Of a stretch of 37,981 nt of DNA, positions 6,155 through 32,785 are shown piece by piece. Location of the stretch: IMG/VR virus record IMGVR_UViG_3300011997_000007, positions 1 through 37,981 of that record. One strand, written 5' to 3'. A model generated the notes under the pieces. It was not told the DNA's origin. It ran no database searches and saw only the letters and a program-made list of their open reading frames with translations. This DNA is from a virus. A program made the translations under genes and the position numbers. Within the stretch, counting starts at the first letter, position 1. Each line of letters starts with the position of its first letter.

Positions 6155-7075
6155 TCAGGCCACTTTCTTGGTGTCGGTGTCAGTGGTGGGGGTGGTGCTC
6201 TTCTTGGCGCCGCCGCCTCGTTTGGGCTCGAAGGTGCCCTTCGGGGTGACGGGGCGGTGGTCGTAGTTGCCCGGCCAGGACCCGTGGATCCACTTCGTCA
6301 AAGTGAGGGCGCCCTTGAACGCGGAGAACTCGGCCGGGCCGGACGGCAGCGGGATGAGCTTGTACGTCTTGGTCCGCAGGGACAGGACGGCGGCGCCGGT
6401 GATGCCGCGCATCATCGGGACGATCGTGTCGTCGGGCATCCACATCTCACTGCAGCCGCGCAGCGCGGTGACCTGGAGGGCGTGCTCGGGGTAGCACTCG
6501 GTTGAGGAGCGGGTCTTGGAGGTTTTGATGTCGATCAACCACAAGGACCGCTTGCCGTCTGGCAGGAGCTTCACCTTGCCTTCGGCGTACCCGTCGAGGC
6601 GGAGCATGAGCAGGATGTCCAGGGTGCCGGCGTAGCCGAGGGCGGGGTTGGCGACGGTGAGCTCGGTGGAGACGACATCGCGGTTCAGGTCGACGTCGAA
6701 GTCGGTCAGAAACTTCTCGTACTGGGCGACGTAGGGTCGCGCTTCGTCGTCGGGTACGAGTGCGCGGCCGGTGAGGTGGCCTTCGGCTTGGTCGTGGATG
6801 CGGGTGCCGAGGTCGCCAAGGATGTCCCGCACAGTTTCGGGGTACCCCTTGATCTCCTTGATCGCGCCGTCCCTGTCGGTCCGGGACCTGGCGACGATCT
6901 GCGGCAGGTGATCCATGGCGTACTCGGCTGCGAGCCGGGAGTACCACAGGGGGATGCCGAACTTGCTCACGCCGGTGCCGAGGGTGTTGGTGACGGAGAC
7001 GAGCTGCTGGCCGGTGACCGGATGCGTGTAATACCGGCCGTTGCTCCCAGTTTCTGCATGGCGCGGGGATGTCAT
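6155..7075 (-). CDS. RecB/Cas4-like PD-(D/E)XK nuclease
   Basis: A 306-residue nuclease. The active-site set is visible in order: E138 (STELTV), D153 (YAGTLDIL), D182-x-K184 (LIDIKTSKT) and Q201 with the helix HALQVTAL. This spacing is that of RecB/Cas4-type exonucleases found in phages, which resect DNA ends for recombination or genome processing. No iron-sulfur Cys set is seen. The C-terminus is Lys/Thr-rich. It begins in an ATGA overlap with the HNH gene. With the Rad50-like ATPase and RuvC-like resolvase it forms a recombination set. Confidence 0.85.
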   Translation of the reverse strand: MTSPRHAETGSNGRYYTHPVTGQQLVSVTNTLGTGVSKFGIPLWYSRLAAEYAMDHLPQIVARSRTDRDGAIKEIKGYPETVRDILGDLGTRIHDQAEGHLTGRALVPDDEARPYVAQYEKFLTDFDVDLNRDVVSTELTVANPALGYAGTLDILLMLRLDGYAEGKVKLLPDGKRSLWLIDIKTSKTRSSTECYPEHALQVTALRGCSEMWMPDDTIVPMMRGITGAAVLSLRTKTYKLIPLPSGPAEFSAFKGALTLTKWIHGSWPGNYDHRPVTPKGTFEPKRGGGAKKSTTPTTDTDTKKVA

Positions 7076-11229: not shown

Positions 11230-11421
11230 TTACGCGGCAGGGGTTTTCGTGGTGGAGTCCTTGAACGCCTTGACGTCCTCAGGACGGAACCGGTAGTGAC
11301 CGCCGGGGGTGCGGAAGGACGGGAGGTCGCCCTTCTCAGCCCAGCGTTTGGCGGTGGTCAGGGTCACACCGAAGATGGCTGCTACTTGGCCGGTAGTCAG
11401 CGGCCCGTCCATGTGGTTCAT
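11230..11421 (-). CDS. Excisionase/Cro-like helix-turn-helix protein
   Basis: A 63-residue protein with one MerR/excisionase-type winged HTH (LTTGQVAAIFGVTLTTAKRWAEKGDLPSFRTPGGHYRF), the fold of phage Xis proteins and of some Cro-type regulators. It is the first gene of the leftward early operon, divergent from the repressor. That position fits a lytic-side regulator, an excisionase, or both. The open frame continues upstream, but the ATG at 11419-11421 is exactly 7 bases after a TTGACT-N17-TTCGAT promoter-like pair, which fits a leaderless mRNA. A second ATG at 11412 is possible. Confidence 0.75.
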   Translation of the reverse strand: MNHMDGPLTTGQVAAIFGVTLTTAKRWAEKGDLPSFRTPGGHYRFRPEDVKAFKDSTTKTPAA

Positions 11422-11543
11422 GACCACATCGAACCACGCCCGTCGCCGATAGTCAACAACTACATCGGTAGATATTAAACTGACATCGCTGTAATTTCCG
11501 CACATCAGTTGCAAAAACGCGCACCTGGGGCCATTCTGAGCAC
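11422..11543. promoter_or_regulatory. Divergent control region between early operon and repressor
   Basis: This 122-base region is A+T-richer than its surroundings. Rightward: TTGCAA at 11509-11514, 17 bases, CATTCT at 11532-11537, then 6 bases to the repressor ATG, which points to a leaderless mRNA. Leftward: TTGACT (read from 11456-11451), 17 bases, TTCGAT, 6 bases, ATG at 11421. A second leftward -10 (TAATAT) lies at 11472-11477. Candidate operator elements: ACATCG/ACATCA at 11426, 11462, 11483 and 11502 (the last three 21 and 19 bases apart), and inverted AACTGA at 11478-11483 with TCAGTT at 11505-11510. Confidence 0.6.
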
Positions 11544-11918
11544 ATGAGCATCGATACCGCACACGCGTGGGTCCCCACGGACACCTTCGGTACGCGACTA
11601 CTCCTGGCACGCCGTGAGCTGGGCCTGAACGTCAAGAAGGCTGCCGCGAAGTGTGGCCTGCACTACGCGACCTGGTCGACGTGGGAGAACGGGCGAACAC
11701 CCGCCGACATGGCGGCTGTGGTGAAGGCCGTCTCTGACGGGCTGGGGTGTCGGCGTGAGTGGCTGATGTGGGGGCTGGCACCAGAAGATCCCCACCCGGG
11801 TCAACCAGGCGAGGGCTCTGTGAGCGAAGTGCGCCGTGAGGGAATTGAACCCCCAACCCGCTGGTTTAGAGGCAACGATCTGGCAAGTAGAGGCAACGAT
11901 TTGGTAAGAGCGGCCTGA
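11544..11918 (+). CDS. Immunity repressor whose 3' end contains attP
   Basis: A 124-residue protein. Residues about 15-75 form an XRE-type helix-turn-helix (FGTRLLLARRELGLNVKKAA, then TWSTWENGRTP) ending REWLMWG, as in actinophage repressors. From about residue 95 the coding sequence is the reverse complement of a tRNA 3' half (REGIEPPTRW is the typical translation). It is followed by a 7-residue tandem repeat, RGNDLAS/RGNDLVR, and the C-terminus -AA. The tRNA-like part is the expected attP core. Integration would replace everything after about residue 107 by host-encoded residues, removing the -AA end. Terminal -AA resembles ssrA tags read by ClpXP. The matching arrangement in phages BPs and Brujita makes the phage-form repressor unstable. 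Leaderless start. Confidence 0.85.
   Translation: MSIDTAHAWVPTDTFGTRLLLARRELGLNVKKAAAKCGLHYATWSTWENGRTPADMAAVVKAVSDGLGCRREWLMWGLAPEDPHPGQPGEGSVSEVRREGIEPPTRWFRGNDLASRGNDLVRAA
11830..11871 (-). other. attP: Probable attP core: 3' half of a tRNA
   Basis: Read on the minus strand, the parts of a tRNA 3' half follow with exact spacing. There is a 7-base anticodon loop CTCTAAA (11871-11865), stem CCAGC, a 5-base variable loop GGGTT, T-stem GGGGG, T-loop TTCAATT, T-stem CCCTC, acceptor ACGGCGC and discriminator A at 11830. No 5' half exists here, so this is not a gene. Bases resemble actinobacterial tRNA-Lys most (acceptor ACGGCGC, loop CTCTTAA), but the isotype is not certain. CCA is not encoded. 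Crossover would be expected at or near the anticodon loop. Confidence 0.8.
11868..11908 (+). repeat. 21-base tandem repeat next to the attP core
   Basis: Two imperfect copies at 11868-11887 and 11889-11908 differ at two C/T positions (AGAGGCAACGAT is shared). The period of 21 bases is two helical turns and seven codons, so it also gives a protein repeat. The position beside the core suggests integrase or excisionase binding sites. Confidence 0.7.
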
Positions 11919-11943
11919 GCGGGCAGAGCTTGGGGCCAAGGTC

Positions 11944-12765
11944 ATGCCCATGACTGCCAACGTGCCTTCGCCCTGGGTTGCGCCGCTCAACCAGTGGGAG
12001 GCATGGATGCGAGCCGCCGACAGACCAGCAACCACCCGGTACCTGCGGGACTACCAGATGCGCCGGTTCGCGGCCGAGCAAGGCGGCAAACCGTGGGACG
12101 TGACCACCGACCAGCTGGTCGCATGGCTGGGCGGGCAGGAGTGGGCCACAGAGACGAGGCGGTCCTACCGGGCCGCGTTGCGCAGCTTCTACGGGTGGGC
12201 GCACGCCTCCGGTCGGATGGCCCATAACCCGGCTGGTCTGCTACCCCCGATCAAGCCACCGCGCAGGCTGCCCCGGCCGACCCCTGAGACCGTCCTCGCG
12301 TCCGCGTTGCTGGCCGCTGACGAGCGAGTCACGTTGATGGTGCTGCTCGCTGCCCGTGAGGGATTGCGCCGGTCCGAGATAGCCCAGGTGCACACCCGCG
12401 ACCTTGAGCAGGACCTGCTCGGGTGGTCGCTGCACGTCCACGGCAAAGGCGCCAAGGAACGGATGGTGCCGCTGTCCGAGCATGTGCGGGTGCTACTGAG
12501 TAGCGCTCCGGCAGGGTTCCTGTTCCCTGGTGCGATCGACGGGCACCTGTCCCCGGCGCACGTCGGCAAGCTGGTCAGCAAGGCGCTTGGGGCGGGGTGG
12601 ACGACGCACACGTTGCGGCACAGGTTTGCGACCGTCGCCTATGCCGGTGAGCGTGACCTGTTCGCGGTGCAGAGGCTGCTGGGTCATTCGAAGCCGGAGA
12701 CGACGCAGCTGTACGTTCTGATCCCTGATGCTTCGCTACGGGCTGCGGTCGCATGGGCGGCCTGA
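11944..12765 (+). CDS. int: Tyrosine-family integrase, short form
   Basis: A 273-residue site-specific recombinase that would join attP to the host tRNA. The core-binding domain starts almost at once (TTRYLRDYQMRRFA near residue 35), so the usual N-terminal arm-binding domain is missing. The catalytic residues are present: Arg in EGLRRSEI, Lys in GKGAKER, His-x-x-Arg in HTLRHRF, His in LLGHSKPETT, and Tyr in QLYVL. It starts 25 bases after the repressor stop, with AAGG before the ATG, so the two are probably co-transcribed. The C-terminus is AVAWAA. Terminal -AA is shared with the repressor and may be a degradation tag. Brujita integrase is a known arm-less relative in design. Confidence 0.93.
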   Translation: MPMTANVPSPWVAPLNQWEAWMRAADRPATTRYLRDYQMRRFAAEQGGKPWDVTTDQLVAWLGGQEWATETRRSYRAALRSFYGWAHASGRMAHNPAGLLPPIKPPRRLPRPTPETVLASALLAADERVTLMVLLAAREGLRRSEIAQVHTRDLEQDLLGWSLHVHGKGAKERMVPLSEHVRVLLSSAPAGFLFPGAIDGHLSPAHVGKLVSKALGAGWTTHTLRHRFATVAYAGERDLFAVQRLLGHSKPETTQLYVLIPDASLRAAVAWAA

Positions 12766-29706: not shown

Positions 29707-31260
29707 CTAGGCCCCGGACGGGCTGTTCGCGGCAGCGAACGGGTCAGGCACAGCCATACCCTGCTCTGCCCGGATCAGATCCGCCTCTTTCTTCACGTCG
29801 AGGGCGTCGAGGTCGGGCTGCATGATCCGCACCCGCGTCTCCGTGGACGCAGCCTGAGCGAGGGCCATGGCCTGCACCGACTGGGAACGCACCAGCAGCG
29901 GCTCACGCGCACCATCAGGCCACGACAGGTCAACATCCTCCGACACCACGGCCCCACTGTGGAACACCAACGCGTCCAGCTGCAGCAACGTCGTGGCCAG
30001 CGGGCCCAACGCCGCAGACCAGTGCCGGATCTTCGACCCGCGCGTCTGCAAGGAGTCCTTCTCCCGGGAGTGGATCTCTGTGGCTGTGGCCGCAACCTCA
30101 TCAGGCATCCCGAACGTCAACGGGGAGTAGCCCGTCGCACGCAGGACCTCACGCAACGCCGCGTTGATCACCCCAAGGTGCTGCTCGACCCGGATGTCGA
30201 ACTGCTGCGGGGTGATCTGCTTCACGTTCATGTCTGAGGGCGGCATCGACAGGGGTGTGAAGATCTCCTGGTCCGCGTCAAACGCGGCACCCATGCCCGC
30301 ACCAAGGTTCGTCAGCATGTACTCCGGGACCACCAGTCGGCCCTTACCCAACCGCAGGTCACGCATCAGCGAGGACCACGCCTCGTCAATGTCCTGCATC
30401 AACGGCTCAACCCCGCCGGCCAGGTCGGGCTTCCCCAGGTCGCACAGTTTGGCGTTGGTCCGCCACGCCGGCATCGGCCGCGCGTTCGGCACATACGCCG
30501 CCGTCAGACCCTTCACCCCGGTCGAAATGGCACCCTCAGCGTCAACCAGGGTCGCGTAGGCCTTGGTGTCTGGGTGGTCTTCCAACGGCTGCGGCGCGCC
30601 GAGTTTGTCGGCGGTGCCCTTGTACAGGCCGTGCAGGATCCGGCCCGGCTCGTGGCGCTCGAGGTGCCGCCACACGGCCTGCTCAGATGTGCCCTCCGGG
30701 ACGGCCAGCTTGTCCCAGAACGTCACCCCAACCAGGTGCCCCCACCGGAAGTCAGGGATGGCCCGGTCGGCGTCAACAATATCGAGCATCACATGGTCGG
30801 CAACCTCTGTGTCCCAGACCAGGCGCAGGTACACCCCACCCAGCCCGGCGGCGTAGAACGCGCCCTCCAACAGTGCGGAGTGTGTGCCGGGGGTGTTCAC
30901 GATCCGGTCAAGGCGGGTCTTCGCGGCATCGTTGCCTTGTCTGTCTGGGACGGTGAACATTGGCGGCGCAGCAAACAGCAGCTGGGAGCTCATCCGGCAC
31001 AGGTCTGCGGCGACGGGCAGGTGCCGGCGACGATCCACCAGCCCGGCCTGCGGCTTCCCCCAGAACGCACGACTCGCGAGCCCGAGAAGCCCGCCGGAGT
31101 ACTGCGACGGCCTGGCTTGCTGCTGCTGTGCCTGCCATCCACCGTAGACGGCGATCAAACCTGCAGGGTCGCCGACAACCCAGGCGTCCCATGTGGACAT
31201 TGCGGCCAGGGCTTGGTCGTACGGCTTCGGGGGCCAAGGTCCACCGGTGGGAAGGCTCAT
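29707..31260 (-). CDS. Portal protein
   Basis: A 517-residue protein (motifs GLLGLASRAFWGKPQAG, LRLVWDTEVADHVMLDIVDA, REVLRATGYSPLTFGMP, THSREK-like helix with EIHSREKDSL) of the SPP1 gp6-type portal family in siphophages. It forms the ring through which DNA is packaged. The start at 31260 overlaps the terminase stop (ATGA). An earlier in-frame ATG at 31311 lies inside the terminase gene and is not used. Confidence 0.92.
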   Translation of the reverse strand: MSLPTGGPWPPKPYDQALAAMSTWDAWVVGDPAGLIAVYGGWQAQQQQARPSQYSGGLLGLASRAFWGKPQAGLVDRRRHLPVAADLCRMSSQLLFAAPPMFTVPDRQGNDAAKTRLDRIVNTPGTHSALLEGAFYAAGLGGVYLRLVWDTEVADHVMLDIVDADRAIPDFRWGHLVGVTFWDKLAVPEGTSEQAVWRHLERHEPGRILHGLYKGTADKLGAPQPLEDHPDTKAYATLVDAEGAISTGVKGLTAAYVPNARPMPAWRTNAKLCDLGKPDLAGGVEPLMQDIDEAWSSLMRDLRLGKGRLVVPEYMLTNLGAGMGAAFDADQEIFTPLSMPPSDMNVKQITPQQFDIRVEQHLGVINAALREVLRATGYSPLTFGMPDEVAATATEIHSREKDSLQTRGSKIRHWSAALGPLATTLLQLDALVFHSGAVVSEDVDLSWPDGAREPLLVRSQSVQAMALAQAASTETRVRIMQPDLDALDVKKEADLIRAEQGMAVPDPFAAANSPSGA

Positions 31261-32543
31261 GCGGCAGCTCCCATCGGGGTCTCGGTCAGTAGGTGGATGC
31301 TGCCCGACCACAATGCTCGGGTCGAGAAGATGCTGTAACGCAACGCGTCGACCTCGTCGTCCTCCGACTTGACCGGCTTGTCCTCACCACGCAACGTGGC
31401 TTTCGGGTCCCACACGTATGCCGGGATCTGGTCGATCAGGTTTGTGCACCGGTCGGAGACCAACAGTCGGTCGGTGGCCAGCAGCGAGGAGATGGTGCGG
31501 ATCCCGTCCAGCACAGCATTGGAGGCGTTGGCGACGTTGCCCATGCCGTCGTAGAACAGCTGATGCTTGAACGACGCGGCGGCCGGGTCGACGAACACCC
31601 ACTCTGGGGCCCGCCATGCCGGCGGCTCCAGCCTGCCAAGCCATGCTCGCAGGTTCGCGGAGTGCTCACCGATGGTCATGTTCCCTGGCGCCCACTCGTC
31701 CAGGACGTACAGCCGGGCCGTCTCCGCTTTGTCGCGACCCAAACCCAGGAGCATCCCGCGGGTCAGGTGCGTGTCGCCGTAGTCCACACCCAGAGCCAGC
31801 ACCCGGTCCATCGTGGGCAGCGCCTTGTGGGCGATGACGTGCCGGGCAGGGTCCCACATGTCGAATATCGCGCCCGCGGCGATGACCCAGTCCCCGTCGA
31901 TGAACCGGCGCCGCCACAGGCCGACGAACTCGCGGTTGATCTGCGCCACATAGGCCGGGTCGAGGTGCTCGTTGTCGGACAGGCGGAACCGGAACACCCG
32001 GTAGCCGAGCTCGACCGCCCGGTCGATGACCTGCCGTTTCACGAAGTGAGCCGGACTGTCAGGGTTCGTGGTTGCGAAGATCTGCGCACCAGGGACGCGC
32101 AGGCGCCCGAGGAGCTGGACCCAGAAGTCCTCGTTGACCAGGGTGAGCTCGTCGACGTAGGCGCCGGCGCAGGTGAGCCCGCGCAGCACCATTTCGGAGC
32201 GGGCGTCGGACGCGCCGAGGATGTGGATGGTGCGGCCAAGGATCTTGGCGGTGTCCGCGCCGGCCGTGTACTGGGAGTGCATGGCGAGCGGACCGAACAG
32301 GGACACGTCAGCGAGGGGTCCGAAGACGTTCCTAGCGATGGACTGGCGGGTGCGTCCGACCACGACGAGTTCACCGGCCGGGGCGGTTGCGATGTAGATG
32401 AGCCAGCGGAGGAGGGATGCGACGGTTTTGCCGCCGGAGATTGACCCGGTGTAGAGGTTGACGCGGGCGTCGGCTTGGACGATGGAGCGGATCTGCATGG
32501 GCGACATGGGGGCCACGTCGACGGCTTGCAGGACGTCAGTCAT
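31257..32543 (-). CDS. terL: Terminase large subunit
   Basis: A 428-residue packaging motor and nuclease. Walker A is TGSISGGKTVAS near residue 36, Walker B is AYVDELTLV, and the nuclease half begins with LALGVDYGDT (first metal Asp), with VDPAAASFKHQL and DEVDALRYSIF carrying the later acidic residues. This is the PBSX/Terminase_3-like branch. The start at 32543 overlaps the upstream stop. Packaging type (cos or headful) cannot be told from this gene alone. Confidence 0.94.
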   Translation of the reverse strand: MTDVLQAVDVAPMSPMQIRSIVQADARVNLYTGSISGGKTVASLLRWLIYIATAPAGELVVVGRTRQSIARNVFGPLADVSLFGPLAMHSQYTAGADTAKILGRTIHILGASDARSEMVLRGLTCAGAYVDELTLVNEDFWVQLLGRLRVPGAQIFATTNPDSPAHFVKRQVIDRAVELGYRVFRFRLSDNEHLDPAYVAQINREFVGLWRRRFIDGDWVIAAGAIFDMWDPARHVIAHKALPTMDRVLALGVDYGDTHLTRGMLLGLGRDKAETARLYVLDEWAPGNMTIGEHSANLRAWLGRLEPPAWRAPEWVFVDPAAASFKHQLFYDGMGNVANASNAVLDGIRTISSLLATDRLLVSDRCTNLIDQIPAYVWDPKATLRGEDKPVKSEDDEVDALRYSIFSTRALWSGSIHLLTETPMGAAA

Positions 32544-32785
32544 CGCCGGTACCAGTTCAGCCAGATCACGTGCACGTCGGCCGGGATCGGCTCGTGCTTC
32601 GGCAGGCGTCCGCAGCGCAGTTGGTAGCGCTTCTGTTGGGCGTTCCTGCGCCGGTTGACCATCCGCATCGACGTGACCAGATACCGCGAGCCCGCGTCGG
32701 TTGCGATCCAGTCGCCAGCCATCGGGCACGGAGCGTCGGGCTGCATGTCGATGTAGAGACCGCACTGGCCGAGCACGTCAGTCAC
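32540..32785 (-). CDS. Small protein between terminase subunits
   Basis: An 81-residue basic protein (GLYIDMQPDAPCPMAGDWIA, RMVNRRRNAQQKRYQLRCGR) with a beta-like fold. The GTG start at 32783-32785 overlaps the terminase small gene by 8 bases. Its MTDVL start resembles that of the terminase, by chance or by duplication. Function unknown. Confidence 0.62.
   Translation of the reverse strand: MTDVLGQCGLYIDMQPDAPCPMAGDWIATDAGSRYLVTSMRMVNRRRNAQQKRYQLRCGRLPKHEPIPADVHVIWLNWYRR

Follow-up and report, generated by a model that had tools for sequence, protein, structure and literature searches.

A probable integration-dependent immunity switch in an uncultivated phage with the attP core inside the repressor gene

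INTRODUCTION

What becomes of a phage repressor when the site used for integration lies within its own gene? The question is raised by an IMG/VR virus record of 37,981 bases (the window, by which we mean the whole stretch of DNA analysed), in which a repressor gene reads through the 3' half of a tRNA lying on the opposite strand. Integration-dependent immunity was reportedly described by Broussard et al. in 2013 for BPs and its cluster G genes gp33/gp32. An earlier note on this DNA had proposed that the same logic operates here, and had named BPs, Giles and Brujita as precedents. The mechanism is described in several papers (PMC4557955, PMC8092301, PMC9262239), and as precedents Brujita and BPs are borne out by homology and by the literature (PMC4557955); Giles was not confirmed in the cited literature, which names clusters G, I, N and P, Gordonia phages and M. 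abscessus prophages.

RESULTS

The repressor gene (11544..11918, plus strand) encodes in its viral form an XRE-type DNA-binding protein of 124 amino acids, matching Pfam HTH_31 (7.7e-7) and PHROG 2328, "transcriptional repressor" (8.9e-22). In tblastn it is matched by Brujita gp34 (5e-13; 39% in alignment) and cluster G gp33 (5e-4), and its DNA-binding part is homologous in sequence to the Brujita/BPs repressor family. The translated ORF ends in ...SRGNDLVRAA, an ssrA-like -RAA that is probably a protease tag on the viral repressor. The integrase gene follows directly, as had been claimed: its ORF (11944..12765) starts 25 nt after the repressor stop on the same strand and encodes a tyrosine integrase of 273 amino acids, with the catalytic domain (Pfam Phage_integrase) at residues 126-258 (2.5e-16) and a weak Phage_int_SAM_1 match at 39-88, while no Pfam model matched an N-terminal arm-binding domain. 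The integrase is 48% identical to cluster G gp32 over 98% coverage and 52.5% identical to that of Gordonia phage Emperor, the range for Emperor, EricDab and Rahul being 51-55%. It too has an ssrA-like C-terminus, -AWAA; an -AA end is present in 20 of 49 related integrases versus 5-8% of long frames (6/110 long stop-to-stop frames in the window and 55/691 across all loci, integrases included).

Divergent from the repressor lies a MerR-like HTH_17 gene (11230..11421, minus strand; 63 amino acids, ending -TPAA), supported by Pfam (8.7e-14) and by PHROG 66, excisionase/regulator (1.5e-9). Its place is occupied in Brujita by gp35, annotated as a putative excisionase, and the gene product is probably an excisionase or a Cro-like regulator; an evident excisionase is stated to be absent from integration-dependent immunity systems (PMC9262239). 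By analogy with the 33-34 region of BPs (PMC4557955), the operator and the promoters for the repressor and the early genes are expected in the intergenic region 11422..11543; no sigma-70 promoter consensus was found between the divergent genes.

The 43-bp putative attP core (11829..11871, minus strand) lies wholly within the repressor ORF, where it is translated in frame as VRREGIEPPTRWFR. Read on the minus strand from 11871 to 11830, it gives the parts of a tRNA 3' half from the anticodon loop to the discriminator: the 3' strand of the anticodon stem (CCAGC), a variable loop (GGGTT), a T arm (GGGGG-TTCAATT-CCCTC), the 3' strand of the acceptor stem (ACGGCGC) and the discriminator A. The antisense tRNA half recognised in the earlier note is confirmed by its fold parts and by identity to tRNA-Lys(CTT) genes at 41 of 43 bases. 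As expected of an attP core, ARAGORN found no complete tRNA here. The match stands well clear of chance, since the next-best position in the window differs at 18 bases and the closest position in each of five shuffles at 17-19.

The earlier note had advised looking for the host tRNA among tRNA-Lys genes first, and known relatives (Whirlwind, tRNA-Lys) directed the search likewise; in cluster CW a 37-bp attP lies in tRNA-Lys (PMC5559632). The exact 37-nt attB had zero matches in the genomes of 84,980 species. When actinobacterial genomes were sampled with mismatches allowed, every match checked with ARAGORN was tRNA-Lys CTT. These pattern scans, which sampled class, order and phylum, gave only near matches before reaching one actinobacterial family (that of genome G1307), in which ten species with genomes of about 2 Mb carry AACCAGCGGGTTGGGGGTTCGATTCCCTCACGGCGCAC, which over 38 nt differs from the phage at a single T-loop base; reversed-pattern controls gave 0 matches in the genome scans. 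Over the whole core, the best host tRNA-Lys genes of this family differ from attP at two bases, anticodon position 36 and the T-loop base. For the tRNA to retain its lysine identity, strand exchange would have to occur 3' of the first of these mismatches, at position 36.

In IMG/VR, the core block pattern had a sole match, the record IMGVR_UViG_3300012005_000101 (L002), whose integrase is 91% identical to that of the window (88% at the DNA level). This pair bears on the alternative that the core is a relic, a tRNA half left from past recombination while the integrase uses another site. The genome scans found neither an exact attB nor an integrated copy of the window phage, and the best known attB has two core mismatches, both of which such a relic would explain. 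BPs itself, however, carries two core mismatches (PMC9262239), the integrase retains its catalytic domain match, and core (43/43) and integrase have been maintained together in L002; a relic is, in our judgement, highly improbable. In two genomes of the matching family, two tRNA-Lys genes lie 5.46 kb apart (G1307:C1:785432-790933 and G1480:C3:536226-541726), the distance in sister species being mostly about 100-250 bp. The 5.46-kb spacer of G1307 was considered as an integrated element and rejected, as its ORFs are transporter, regulator and esterase-like and include no integrase.

If the core is the attachment site, integration should leave the virus-only tail GNDLASRGNDLVRAA (11872..11918, plus strand) beside the integrase at attL. 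A 21-bp tandem repeat (11867-11887 and 11888-11908) overlaps the boundary, its first unit beginning within the outermost bases of the tRNA block; the two units encode RGNDLAS and RGNDLVR and so underlie the RGNDL repeat of the protein. No extra copies occur elsewhere in the window; the repeat is common to the window and L002 and was not seen in Emperor or EricDab. The two units may be arm-type integrase sites, although such sites flanking the core are said to be absent in published systems (PMC9635641).

The earlier note had further predicted that integration swaps the repressor C-terminus, removing the RGNDL repeat and the -AA end, and the joints constructed in silico agree. Joined to a host tRNA-Lys with a CCAG stem, the repressor ends ...VRREGIEPPTRWLRASCSAN at 115 amino acids; joined to one with a TCAG stem, it ends ...VRREGIEPPTR at 106. 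In both cases the stop is supplied by the tRNA sequence itself. The RGNDLASRGNDLVRAA end is lost in joints to every fetched tRNA-Lys locus, and RGNDL and -RAA go with it. The predicted change is modest, from 124 to 115 or 106 residues, a net loss of 9 or 18.

What such joints look like in chromosomes could be seen in relatives, since scanning genomes with the integrase revealed actinobacterial prophages at 44-48% identity. In each of six integrated relatives a tRNA-Arg(ACG) 3' half occurs twice; in five genomes the copies share a contig and are separated by 15.7-16.8 kb, and in the SZAS-7 MAG they are on two contigs. One copy belongs to an intact tRNA into which an HTH ORF runs (attR), ending ...VRPKGLEPLTF, ...VRLEGLEPPTF or ...VRPEGLEPPTF in Microbacterium Leaf320, GCS4 and USTB-Y and in Mycetocola, and ...NPQPSDP in the SZAS-7 MAG; at the second copy this frame stays open for about 25-50 codons towards int. 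The junction thus lies inside a repressor-like HTH gene in all six relatives, and truncation was found there in five, the exception being Labedella, in which the joint lengthens the frame and a longer prophage form is predicted. At the Labedella site (L267; Labedella phragmitis, 643000-662900), a remnant repressor abuts the attL core and gives a chromosomal joint of the order rep2-core-tail1-int1. A tandem prophage was considered for this locus and rejected, the upstream copy being a mere remnant repressor beside other genes; neither a second integrase nor a further core was found nearby.

Comparison of the window with L002 (L002:1-478) revealed an abrupt joint. DNA similarity starts precisely at 11829, one base past the tRNA discriminator: the core is identical at 43/43 bases and core plus tail at 84/90, whereas the 60 bases upstream are 27% identical, as at random. 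The front half of the L002 repressor carries a different HTH (BetR/HTH_3), joined in the same frame, and resembles the repressors of Gordonia and Arthrobacter phages most. Just beyond the core, L002 has CCA and a terminator-like hairpin, absent from the window, features that the tRNA would use once the phage is integrated. L002 might instead be read as an attL with host DNA leftward, and CCA plus hairpin do resemble the normal 3' flank of a tRNA; this reading was judged less likely because on that side lies an in-frame coding sequence for a phage-type BetR/XRE repressor. The simplest reading of the aligned sequences is that the DNA-binding half of the repressor has been exchanged at the attachment core, by integrase or by homologous recombination. 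Since attP lies inside the repressor gene, the core could conceivably act as an immunity swap point, at which a new DNA-binding half joins the existing tail and integrase in frame and the integration site stays unchanged; recombination might occur, for example, among phages or remnant prophages with a tRNA in common, as at the Labedella site. We advance this only tentatively and lean somewhat against it. In cluster CW, repressors diverge while sharing attP (PMC5559632). Querying IMG/VR with the repressor yielded two further loci, L024 and L025. In the first (L024:5890-7291, a 60-kb phage), a homologous repressor ending -VAA lies directly before the integrase, and no tRNA half was recognised in the 3' region; in L025 the repressor homologue is short and has no int nearby.

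The comparisons also bear on whether the tail matters at all. The tag is not invariant: the L002 repressor ends -KVA and several integrated relatives are without -AA, members of this kind being likewise noted in PMC8092301. Among Gordonia phages, the annotated immunity repressors with a tRNA half end -VAA (Emperor, McGonagall), -WAA (EricDab) and -HAA (Rahul). The window, L002, Rahul and most integrated relatives read the core in one frame and Emperor, EricDab and McGonagall in another, so that tails mostly ending in Ala despite different core frames would fit selection on the end and not on the tRNA-encoded peptide, in what is a small and related sample. A tail without regulatory role, both repressor forms being equally functional, would account for a tail sequence that is not conserved between families, for the relatives lacking -AA and for the Labedella joint, which does not truncate the repressor. 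It would leave unexplained why the frame stays open through the antisense tRNA in differing frames, yet mostly reaches -AA or -A next to int, and why L002, whose repressor front is unrelated, has kept this frame and this tail; moreover, the homologous system has been tested in BPs (PMC4557955). We consider a tail devoid of function improbable.

DISCUSSION

Gene layout, the tRNA identity of the core, the reading frames, homology and the joints in relatives, all of them directly observed, make it very probable that the window carries an integration-dependent immunity switch. Such a switch would work as follows: (i) the viral repressor would carry the -RAA tail, probably a protease tag, which would keep repressor levels low and let lytic development proceed; (ii) the integrase, itself ending -WAA, would, if enough of it survives, catalyse recombination between the repressor-borne core and a host tRNA-Lys(CTT) 3' half; (iii) the repressor would be kept at attR, where its frame would enter the antisense of the intact tRNA and stop, tail-less, at 115 (or 106) residues, and tail and int would be kept at attL; and (iv) the altered prophage repressor, which is predicted to be stable, would confer immunity only after integration. 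Recombination at the exact core, the instability of the viral form and the activity of the prophage form are what we infer within this scheme.

The closest known arrangements are of the same kind. Brujita (cluster I; gp34/gp33/gp35) shares the homologous repressor, the gene order, the divergent MerR-like gene and a tRNA 3' half in the repressor; its gp34 ends -HAA, and it differs from the window in tRNA and tail. BPs and cluster G (gp33/gp32) likewise have attP in the repressor, a homologous integrase and a tail removed by integration, but use tRNA-Arg instead of tRNA-Lys, and BPs loses 33 residues compared with the predicted 9 (or 18). Degradation has been tested in the BPs system (PMC4557955) and is predicted for the window repressor. 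The Gordonia phages EricDab, Emperor, McGonagall, Rahul and GMA5, of 15-18 kb, also have a tRNA core in the repressor and -AA ends, the repressors of EricDab and Rahul being homologous to that of the window. Judged by these homologies, the switch is a new example of a mechanism known in mycobacterial and Gordonia phages, and one inherited or exchanged, not reinvented. The earlier description of a phage with otherwise different genes holds for the structural genes: among the closest known terminases to that of the window are those of the Streptomyces BC phages SV1, Picard and Tubberson (51-54%). Tubberson is reported to have a related immunity layout by synteny (PMC12243558) but is said to use a serine integrase, whereas the window carries a switch of the Brujita/Gordonia kind.

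The locus would take integration-dependent immunity beyond the cultured Mycobacterium and Gordonia phages in which it has mainly been described, into an uncultivated actinobacterial phage whose virion genes are Streptomyces-like. The core match suggests a host family, with its tRNA-Lys as the predicted target. The window/L002 pair offers a clean, testable case of apparent repressor exchange precisely at the core, one relevant to the diversification of superinfection immunity groups; should the swap reading prove true, phages could change immunity group with the integration site unchanged.

Two further observations concern the rest of the window. Short IMG/VR contigs (L135-L139, L156), some of them from the metagenome of L002, carry terminase genes 76-100% identical to that of the window (31257-32765), which suggests a group of related uncultivated phages. 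At 6362-6443, ARAGORN recognises a tRNA-Thr(GGT) on the plus strand, antisense to a minus-strand ORF (6155-7075).
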